NCBI RefSeq assembly: GCF_002305875.1
Contig: NZ_CP022098.1
Coordinates: 12,152,001-12,216,000 of the forward strand
DNA: 64,000 bases
Direction: 5' to 3'
Source of the DNA: Cystobacter fuscus
Lineage (GTDB): Bacteria; Myxococcota; Myxococcia; Myxococcales; Myxococcaceae
Below are positions 23,420 through 26,500 of this stretch, one piece after another. The stretch's first letter is position 1. Each line of letters starts with the position of its first letter. The notes below the pieces were generated by a model, which was not told the origin of the DNA, ran no database searches, and was given only the letters and a program-made list of their open reading frames with translations. Both the position numbers and the translations under genes were made by a program.

Positions 23420-26400
23420 TCACGCGGCCTGACTCCCGCCGCCGTCCCGCACCACGAAGGCGAGCTGTCCCGCCTCGGTGCCGCGCGTGGGGGTGAAGTC
23501 GAACCGCCTTCCGCACGACGCCTGGGTGTCCGCCGAGACGAGCACGCCTCCTCGAGGGGCGTGCCGCGCCAGTTGCCGCGCCTGATCCATCGGCGAGCCG
23601 AGCACCGTGTACTCCCACCGGCCCCCCCGCGAGCCCACGTTGCCCACCAGCGCCTCGCCGGTGGCCACGCCCACGCGCACCTCCAGGGCCACCCGGGACG
23701 TGGCCCGCGCCTCCAGCCGGGACCGCACCGCCAGCGCCGCCTCCACCGCGCGCCGCGCATGGTCCACCATCCGCTGCGGATCCCCGAACACCGCGAGCAC
23801 CCCCTCGCCGCGCAGCGAGTCCACGCGCCCCTTGCGCGCGAGCACCTCGTGCACCACCCCGTCGAGGACCTCGCGCAGCTCGCCCACCACCTCCTCGGGA
23901 GGCAGGCGCTCCAGGGCGCCCGTGGCACCCTGCACCCAGGCGAACAGCACCGACACGCGCTGGCGGGAGCCCTCCAGGCTCAGCACCCCCTCCGAGGCGG
24001 ACACCAGCCGCTCCAGCTCGGCGTCATCCACATAGCCCTCGAAGGTGTGACGCATCCGCGAGCGCTCCTGCTCGTCGGCGGAGATGCGCCCCGCGAGCAC
24101 CAGACCGAAGACCAGTACCGAGGCCACCATGGGCCCCAGGGGCCCGAGCACCACCCCGCGCTCGGCCAGCAGCAGCGCTCCGCCCACCACCCCGAGCAGC
24201 ACCACCAGCACCGAGGCGAACGTCAGCGAGGGGCGCAGCACCAGCACCGCCCCCGTCAGCAGCGCGCCACACAGGGCGATGAGCGCGAGTTGCAGTCCCA
24301 GGGGCAGCTCGCGCACGGGCCGCGCCTCCAGCAGATCGCTCAGGAGCGAGGCGTGCAGCAGCACCAGCGGCAACGTCTGACCATTGGCGAAGGGGCCCAG
24401 GTCGCGCACGCTCTCCGCCGTCTGCCCCACCAGCACGTACTTGTCCTTGAGGTGCTCGGCCAGCGCCGGGGGGAAGACGGGCTCGCGTGCCTGGGCGAGC
24501 TCCGCGTAGAGCGCGCCGTAGGAGAGCACGTCCGTGGCCCCGGGCCTGCGGAAGCTGGCCAGCACGGCGCTGCTGTCGTCGGTGGGCACGTGCAGGGCAC
24601 CCAGTCGCACGCCGTCCGGCTCCTGGAGGATGTCGGAGATGGGCAGCCCCAGGCCCCGCATGTACATGCCCAGCGCGAACGTGGGCAGGGCCCGTCCCGC
24701 CAGGTTCGACAACAGGTATGCGCCGCGGACGTTGCCGGAGGCCGAGCGCGCCACCTCCACCTGCGCCACCACCGAGCCGCGCAGCAGGGGCTCCTGGGGC
24801 GCGAGCACGCCCTGGCACCCGAAGCGGGGCGAGGGGCCCGGGGCGAGGGAGGAGGACTCGAGCCGCTGGGCCAGCGCCTGGGCCTTGTCGTTGGCCTCGA
24901 AGGTACAGGGCGCGGCCAGCACCACCCGGCCGTACCGGGCGATGGCCTCGCCCAGGGCCGCGTCCGCGCTGGGGCCGTCTCGCGCCGGCAGGTAGAGGAA
25001 GGAGTCGATTCCGAGCGCCTTCACCCCGGCCCGCCCGAGCGCCTCCACCATCCTCGCCTGGACGTGGCGTGGCTGGGGCCAGCCCACCGTGTCGATGGTG
25101 GGCTGATCGATGGCGAGCAGCACCACCTGCTTGTTCCACGGCCGGGGACGGGCCGTCAGCAGCAACCCCTGCGCGCGCTCCTCGAAGCCGCGCCAGGCGT
25201 GCGTGGGCGCCAGGGCCATCACGAGCGCGGTGGCCAGCGCGCCCAGCAGCACGCCGCGCCGCACCCGCCGTCGCACCCGGTTCCGGGCGCTCTCCTGCTC
25301 GCGCGCGGGGTCTCTCGCGAGCGCTTGGAGCAGCGCCTCCATGCTGGGGAAGCGCTCCTTGGGGTCATGGCTCAACCCACGCAGCACCACGTCGCTCAAC
25401 CACGGCGGCACGCGGGTGCGGGTGCTCGAGGGCTGGAAGCGCCGGGTCCGGATGTTCCACTCCACTTCCGCGTCGTTGTCACCCGCGAAGGGCCGACAGC
25501 CGTGGAGCGTCTCGTACAGCGCCACGCAGAAGCTGAACTGGTCGCTGCGCTCGTCGACGGGGAACAGGAGGGTCATCTGCTCGGGCGCCATGTACCCGGG
25601 CGTGCCCACCACCAACCCCGCCCGGGTCAACTCCTGGCCGAGCCACCGCTCCTGTCCGGGTGCGCCCTCGGACCGTGGGGCGTCCGGGAGGCCCTCCCGG
25701 GAGCGGGCCAGTCCGAAGTCCGACACCCGCACCGAGCCGTCCACGCCGATGAGGATGTTGCTCGGCTTGATGTCGCGGTGGATGAGGCCCGCGGCGTGCG
25801 CGGCGGCCAGCCCCGCGCCTGCATGACGGAAGATCTCCAGGATCTGACGCGTGGAGCGGGGCGTCCGGGACCACTCGCGCAGCGTGGTGCCCTCCACGTA
25901 TTCCATGGCCACGAAGAACCGGCCCTCGACGTGGAGCAGGTCATGGATGGTGACCACGTTGGGATGCGAGACGCTCGCCATGGCCTGCGCCTCGCGCAGG
26001 AAGCGGGTCTTGTGCTCCTCGTGCTCCGGGCGCTCGGACATCCAGGAGTGCAGCCGCTTGATGGCCACCCGACGGTGCAGCTCGGGGTCATGAGCCAGGT
26101 AGACGGCGCCCATGCCACCGGTGCCCAGCACGCGCTCGATGACGTAGCGGCCCACGCGGCTGCCGGGCTCGAAGTCCTGGGGTGCGGCGGAGGCCTGGGG
26201 TCGCGGCGCTGCCCGGGAGCCCTCGGCGCGCGTCGCGTCCTGGGAGTCCTCCGTGCGCGTCGTGTCCTGGGAGGGAGGCTCGGAGGGCCGCACCGGGGCG
26301 GCGGGGCGCGAGTCGCGGGGGGGATCCGCGGCGGTCGGGGCGAGTTCCGCCCGGCACCGCGCGCACCCGCCCAGGTGGGCCTCCACCCGCTGCCGCCGCT

Positions 26401-26500
26401 CGGGAGGAAGCTGTCCCTGGAGGAAGAGGGAGACCTCGTGCGGCTTCAGACACGCTGGAGAGGGAGGCTGCGCGGAGGGAGGACGAGGCGGGGAGGCCAT
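23420..26500 (-). CDS. Zinc-finger/Ser-Thr kinase/CHASE2/degenerate class III cyclase protein
   Basis: About 1026-aa membrane signalling protein. In order: zf-HC2 anti-sigma-like zinc finger (C17, H21, H42, C46/C49), Pro/Ser-rich linker, active-looking kinase domain at 113-390 (GTGGMG loop, K148, HRDIKPSN with D243, DFG 261-263), membrane segment at about 413-432, an extracytoplasmic CHASE2 sensor at about 433-720 (VVLLAIDQPTID, KALGIDSFLYLPA, LKDKYVLVGQTA), three more membrane segments (about 735-805), then a class III cyclase-like domain at about 845-1000. The cyclase has lost key residues: the first metal Asp is W855, GD is GE (899), and IGDxVNxAAR reads LGSPMDQARQ. It therefore probably no longer makes cyclic nucleotides. 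The start is uncertain; no clear ribosome binding site. Confidence 0.88.
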   Translation of the reverse strand: MASPPRPPSAQPPSPACLKPHEVSLFLQGQLPPERRQRVEAHLGGCARCRAELAPTAADPPRDSRPAAPVRPSEPPSQDTTRTEDSQDATRAEGSRAAPRPQASAAPQDFEPGSRVGRYVIERVLGTGGMGAVYLAHDPELHRRVAIKRLHSWMSERPEHEEHKTRFLREAQAMASVSHPNVVTIHDLLHVEGRFFVAMEYVEGTTLREWSRTPRSTRQILEIFRHAGAGLAAAHAAGLIHRDIKPSNILIGVDGSVRVSDFGLARSREGLPDAPRSEGAPGQERWLGQELTRAGLVVGTPGYMAPEQMTLLFPVDERSDQFSFCVALYETLHGCRPFAGDNDAEVEWNIRTRRFQPSSTRTRVPPWLSDVVLRGLSHDPKERFPSMEALLQALARDPAREQESARNRVRRRVRRGVLLGALATALVMALAPTHAWRGFEERAQGLLLTARPRPWNKQVVLLAIDQPTIDTVGWPQPRHVQARMVEALGRAGVKALGIDSFLYLPARDGPSADAALGEAIARYGRVVLAAPCTFEANDKAQALAQRLESSSLAPGPSPRFGCQGVLAPQEPLLRGSVVAQVEVARSASGNVRGAYLLSNLAGRALPTFALGMYMRGLGLPISDILQEPDGVRLGALHVPTDDSSAVLASFRRPGATDVLSYGALYAELAQAREPVFPPALAEHLKDKYVLVGQTAESVRDLGPFANGQTLPLVLLHASLLSDLLEARPVRELPLGLQLALIALCGALLTGAVLVLRPSLTFASVLVVLLGVVGGALLLAERGVVLGPLGPMVASVLVFGLVLAGRISADEQERSRMRHTFEGYVDDAELERLVSASEGVLSLEGSRQRVSVLFAWVQGATGALERLPPEEVVGELREVLDGVVHEVLARKGRVDSLRGEGVLAVFGDPQRMVDHARRAVEAALAVRSRLEARATSRVALEVRVGVATGEALVGNVGSRGGRWEYTVLGSPMDQARQLARHAPRGGVLVSADTQASCGRRFDFTPTRGTEAGQLAFVVRDGGGSQAA

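Follow-up and report, generated by a model that had tools for sequence, protein, structure and literature searches.

What does a cyclase fold contribute to a receptor kinase once its catalytic residues are gone? The question is raised by a single gene of the soil myxobacterium Cystobacter fuscus, found in the stretch of 64 000 nucleotides analysed here (the window), which forms part of a 12.35 Mb, single-contig genome. We found no description of a Ser/Thr kinase–CHASE2–cyclase protein in the open-access literature.

Architecture and surroundings of the gene

Translation of the window gave a protein of 1026 amino acids encoded on the minus strand (table 1). The reading frame stays open upstream to 26770 (GTG); the ATG at 26500 is the likely start. 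An earlier note on this DNA had read the protein as a zinc finger, a Ser/Thr kinase with all its catalytic residues, a CHASE2 sensor and a cyclase fold, and all four domains were recovered above their own Pfam cut-offs (for CHASE2, 106.7 bits against 26.3; for the cyclase family PF00211, 42.3 bits against 21.9). The predicted kinase carries the expected motifs throughout (P-loop GTGGMGAVY at 126, VAIK at 145 with K148, HRDIKPSN at 241, DFG at 261 and APE at 305) and is akin to other bacterial Ser/Thr kinases, for example those in loci L005 and L006. One hydrophobic segment (about residues 408–428) precedes CHASE2, and the longer one that follows it presumably forms three membrane helices, an assignment that draws in part on the topology we take CHASE2 cyclases to have. 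The transducer-like helix beyond the membrane retains R817, F820 and Y823.

Table 1. Features of the kinase–CHASE2–cyclase gene, in window coordinates.
Feature	Residues	Position	Strand	Basis
Whole gene: zf-HC2, Ser/Thr kinase, CHASE2, degenerate class III cyclase		23420..26500	minus	Translation and Pfam
zf-HC2 zinc finger	23–50	26351..26434	minus	Pfam, 5.8e-8
Ser/Thr protein kinase domain	119–390	25331..26146	minus	Pfam Pkinase, 3.8e-41
CHASE2 sensor (predicted)	425–747	24260..25228	minus	Pfam, 1.9e-30
Hydrophobic stretch, putative three membrane helices	about 748–803	24092..24259	minus	By eye from sequence
Cyclase-transducer-like helix (RxxFxxY...), between membrane and cyclase fold	805–833	24002..24088	minus	Alignment
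Degenerate class III cyclase domain	846–1003	23492..23965	minus	Pfam Guanylate_cyc, 8e-11

Searches of the locus for promoter and terminator consensus sequences and for Rfam families came back empty, and no plasmid record matched at E <= 1e-60. When the orthologous loci were compared, no neighbouring gene was conserved outside the genus. Several features of the surroundings were seen along the way. A short Flp/Fap pilin-like protein, below the Pfam cut-off, is encoded at 22985–23386 on the plus strand, convergent with the kinase gene. At 26621–28000, on the upstream side of that gene, a helix-turn-helix protein and a PIN-domain protein are encoded, a possible toxin–antitoxin pair; this stretch is absent here in the congeneric genomes G001 and G003, and a similar one lies elsewhere in G003. 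The same two genomes also lack, at this place, about 4.7 kb (about 17165–21918) that includes, as judged by eye, an MprF-like membrane protein and a transporter-like gene.

Loss of the cyclase active site

Catalytic residues were assigned by alignment with the solved cyclases CyaB (3r5g) and the cyanobacterial 2w01, together with 57 active-type cyclase domains and with the CHASE2 cyclases of relatives. The first metal aspartate is W855 and the second E899, as the earlier note had it, down to the exact numbering of the tryptophan. The damage goes further than had been noticed and takes in both metal ligands, Lys, Asn and Arg: the base-contacting lysine is S895, the catalytic asparagine D972 and the transition-state arginine Q976. 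Both pairs of residues that mark an active class III cyclase, the two metal aspartates and the asparagine with the arginine, are thus missing. Judged by its sequence, the domain has lost catalysis.

The remainder of the fold has been treated differently. The 57 active-type cyclases have 54 strongly conserved columns (at least 75% agreement); of these, 25 survive in all four orthologues described below, eight in some and 21 in none. Those kept are mainly structural, that is glycines, prolines and positions of the transducer helix (among them G844, G891, G898, P908, H914, G944, G953, G956, Y964, G968, T992, R817, F820 and Y823), whereas those lost include every catalytic position apart from the T/D site. 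With structural columns retained and catalytic ones replaced across four orthologues, the fold has been kept and the chemistry lost. An AlphaFold2 model of the cyclase domain, built from two sequences, has helices and strands in the order expected of a class III cyclase, but at a pLDDT of 41 it is too weak to count as evidence.

The active site of a class III dimer draws its aspartates from one subunit and its other residues from the partner (PMC4886424). Because both sets are gone, the pseudocyclase would complete neither half-site, whether paired with itself or with an active partner, which argues against a role as half of an active heterodimer.

Orthologues and selection

A search with the cyclase domain found the four-domain protein in four of 96 genomes of the family. 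The same architecture is present in the congeners G001 and G003, with 90–91% identity over the whole protein, and in G070, from another genus of the family (locus L004), with 59%; the same search gave no four-domain protein in a further congeneric genome, G002. All the orthologues keep the zinc-finger HxxxCxxC motif and the Hanks-type kinase motifs (P-loop, VAIK lysine, HRD, DFG and APE).

All four orthologues are catalytically dead, with both metal aspartates, Lys, Asn and Arg replaced in each. The congeners share the W and E of the window protein, and G070 has Q and K in their place; including the E that stands for D972 among the orthologues, the replacements vary as W/Q, E/K and D/E. The T/D site is a partial exception to the loss, its threonine being kept within the genus. 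The earlier note had named orthologues with intact aspartates, or a sequencing error, as findings that would overturn its reading. Orthologues of the first kind numbered zero, and W/E in two congener assemblies with Q/K in a third, that is, three further assemblies, rule out a sequencing error. Nor is there any stop, frameshift or truncation in the pseudocyclase across the four genomes.

Among the three congeneric species, the cyclase domain of the window protein is 89–90% identical, compared with 98–99% for the cyclase domains of two CHASE2-cyclase paralogues in the same species; CHASE2 itself is 93–96% identical in all three proteins. The pseudocyclase is also the fastest-evolving folded domain of its own protein, the kinase and CHASE2 standing at 92–96% among the congeners. 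Codon models (GY, F3X4 frequencies) gave an omega of 0.27 for the pseudocyclase in the three congeners (2dlnL 15.5 against omega = 1) and 0.18 in four taxa including G070 (2dlnL 77), rejecting omega = 1 in both cases. The corresponding values were 0.08–0.09 for the kinase and 0.04–0.07 for a catalytically intact CHASE2-cyclase paralogue (L001 type). Nei–Gojobori dN/dS for the cyclase among the congeners was 0.6–0.9, values set aside in favour of the F3X4 model on account of extreme GC3 bias. The dead domain is under purifying selection: with an omega raised relative to the kinase and the paralogue but well under 1, its constraint is relaxed but real.

Origin of the fusion and related systems

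Among 78 open frames matching CHASE2, drawn from the collected loci (mostly 33 genomes of the order, repeats included), only those of this orthologue group carry a kinase. In a tree of CHASE2 and cyclase domains (69 rows) the group forms one clade on a long stem (1.57) and joins kinase-free CHASE2 cyclases of other myxobacterial families (L188, L189, L190, L193 and L197) with moderate support (SH-aLRT 87). These CHASE2–class III adenylate cyclases have CHASE2, membrane helices and a C-terminal cyclase fold in the same order as the window protein, but they lack the kinase and keep every catalytic residue (D, K, D, T, N and R), whereas the window protein has gained a zf-HC2 kinase and lost catalysis. 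Its placement beside intact, kinase-free relatives therefore puts the gain of the kinase and the loss of catalysis on the same stem branch. As part of our best overall explanation, in which we have middling confidence, the receptor would have arisen when a CHASE2-adenylate cyclase acquired, at its N-terminus, a myxobacterial kinase of the zf-HC2 type.

Two more distant systems invite comparison. Animal receptor guanylyl cyclases combine, in one receptor chain, a dead kinase fold (the kinase-homology domain) with an active cyclase. They resemble the window protein in having a kinase fold and a cyclase fold in one chain, one of the two dead, and are its mirror image; we do not claim common descent of the architecture. 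Among cyanobacterial Ser/Thr kinases, CHASE2 is listed as one of the tethered domains (PMC2877116). Kinase and CHASE2 are tethered there as here, and the part of that source giving the list mentions no cyclase domain alongside.

A proposed role for the dead domain

The C-terminal tail of this kinase descends from an enzyme that produced cAMP. It has lost every catalytic residue and is nonetheless kept by selection, so it probably no longer works as an enzyme but serves the kinase structurally or by relaying a signal. This agrees with the proposal of the earlier note that the receptor kinase kept its dead cyclase for some purpose other than catalysis: four dead orthologues remain in frame, under purifying selection and with their glycines kept. 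More specifically, we give an even chance to the pseudocyclase being a dimerisation and transducer scaffold for a membrane receptor kinase. CHASE2 would most likely bind a periplasmic signal, and the resulting change would cross the membrane helices to the two cytoplasmic domains, with the first helix leading to the kinase and the last helix, followed by the transducer segment, leading to the pseudocyclase. Through presumed dimer formation and coupling to the kinase, the scaffold would set the pairing or spacing of two kinase domains, which would then trans-autophosphorylate and signal by phosphorylation. Dimerisation, one of the two roles offered in the earlier note, is plausible. In a related membrane cyclase, the membrane and helical segments promote or guide dimer assembly (PMC9433096), and the transducer helix corresponding to those segments is retained in the window protein. 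The absence of a neighbouring gene conserved beyond the genus counts against the scaffold.

The rapid change of the pseudocyclase also weighs against it, since a weakly constrained passenger would fit as well. The cyclase would on that account have become jobless once the kinase was the output, its C-terminus being kept only to fold harmlessly and carrying no signal. Amino-acid change raised above that of the other domains and of active paralogues speaks for this, as do catalytic positions whose replacements differ from one orthologue to another. It fits poorly with an omega clearly below 1, with four genomes free of stops, frameshifts and truncations, and with selective retention of the transducer helix and structural glycines, and we consider it somewhat unlikely.

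Less likely again is an interaction module: the domain would bind to a different protein, such as an active CHASE2 cyclase in its monomeric form, and either inhibit it or link the kinase to cAMP signalling. The host genome could supply partners, with 18 class III cyclase family matches in all, two further CHASE2 cyclases among them. If the pseudocyclase paired with an intact cyclase, no active site of the mixed dimer would be complete, the pseudocyclase having lost both half-sites. The lack of a conserved partner gene nearby beyond the genus speaks against it.

A nucleotide sensor, which the earlier note had also suggested, would still take up ATP, GTP or a cyclic nucleotide in its altered pocket and signal this to the kinase; we regard this as improbable. 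Degenerate GGDEF domains can act as ligand receptors and the general fold is kept here, but the metal, base and phosphate contacts are gone, which makes nucleotide sensing unlikely, and their replacements vary among orthologues as those of a constrained new pocket would not. It is scarcely credible that the cyclase is still active through a non-canonical site, or that the sequence is an assembly artefact: the intact reading frame is all that favours either, the W and E recur in two independent congener assemblies, with Q and K in a third genome, and we know of no class III enzyme that is active without both metal aspartates.

Kinase–cyclase fusions across myxobacteria

Besides the window protein, three of the 18 cyclase matches in the host genome are fusions to a Ser/Thr kinase. 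L212 combines a receiver domain with an intact cyclase, L220 combines HEAT repeats with a partly degenerate one, and L222, whose cyclase is degenerate and which also has an AAA ATPase, comes near the TOMM kinase/cyclase family TIGR03903 (TOMM_kin_cyc; 643 bits, cut-off 705.75). The TOMM fusions and the other myxobacterial kinase–cyclase fusions share with the window protein an N-terminal Ser/Thr kinase and a class III cyclase in one chain, and L222 even has a W aligned at the first metal aspartate; unlike the window protein, it has the AAA ATPase and no CHASE2. Against TIGR03903 the window protein scored 121.8 bits, below the same cut-off, its best stretch lying in the kinase part.

We called a cyclase degenerate if any of four residues was missing, namely the two Asp, the Asn and the Arg, and set aside tandem two-cyclase proteins. 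Across the four genomes of the family that were fully sampled, 10 of the 13 cyclases fused to a kinase were degenerate, compared with 12 of 55 unfused ones (Fisher p 0.0003, which overstates the evidence because the rows are partly orthologous and the proteins not independent). Of the four kinds of kinase fusion distinguished by architecture, three (kinase–CHASE2, kinase–AAA and kinase–HEAT) have a degenerate cyclase and the kinase–receiver kind an intact one. The earlier note had called the signalling chain unusual. That holds for the CHASE2-containing form, which is rare; since fusions of kinases with degenerate cyclases recur in the genome and the family, the window protein is a rare membrane version of a recurring combination.

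Some tandem two-cyclase proteins (L216/L221, L241, L257, L262 and L275) keep the aspartates in the first domain and Asn and Arg in the second, a layout that resembles the C1/C2 halves of animal adenylate cyclases. A second CHASE2-cyclase paralogue (L003:1285–3915; own genome C1:3987775–3989937; orthologues L131, L133, L134 and L135) keeps both metal aspartates and the lysine and has Lys and Tyr/Phe for the catalytic Asn and Arg; its cyclase domain is 98–99% identical between congeners, half-degenerate yet strongly constrained. An FHA–GAF–cyclase (L211:1–3168; own genome C1, around 11404676) has the degenerate residues E G D C N W and is directly followed, on the same strand, by a Ser/Thr kinase gene. 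L203 has a similar arrangement with an intact cyclase, and likely relatives of L211 with E A E or E G E occur in G010, G017, G052 and G081.

The enrichment of degenerate cyclases in kinase fusions suggests repeated use. It is possible, and we propose it tentatively, that a myxobacterial class III cyclase fused to a kinase repeatedly becomes a kinase-regulating pseudocyclase, the CHASE2 receptor being the membrane version and at least two other architectures (kinase–pseudocyclase–AAA and kinase–pseudocyclase–HEAT) having undergone the same kind of loss. Regulation by pseudoenzymes has been studied extensively for kinases and GGDEF domains but much less for class III cyclases. Here a cyclase has been kept under selection after full loss of its active site, in a receptor that appears to have switched to a protein kinase for its output.
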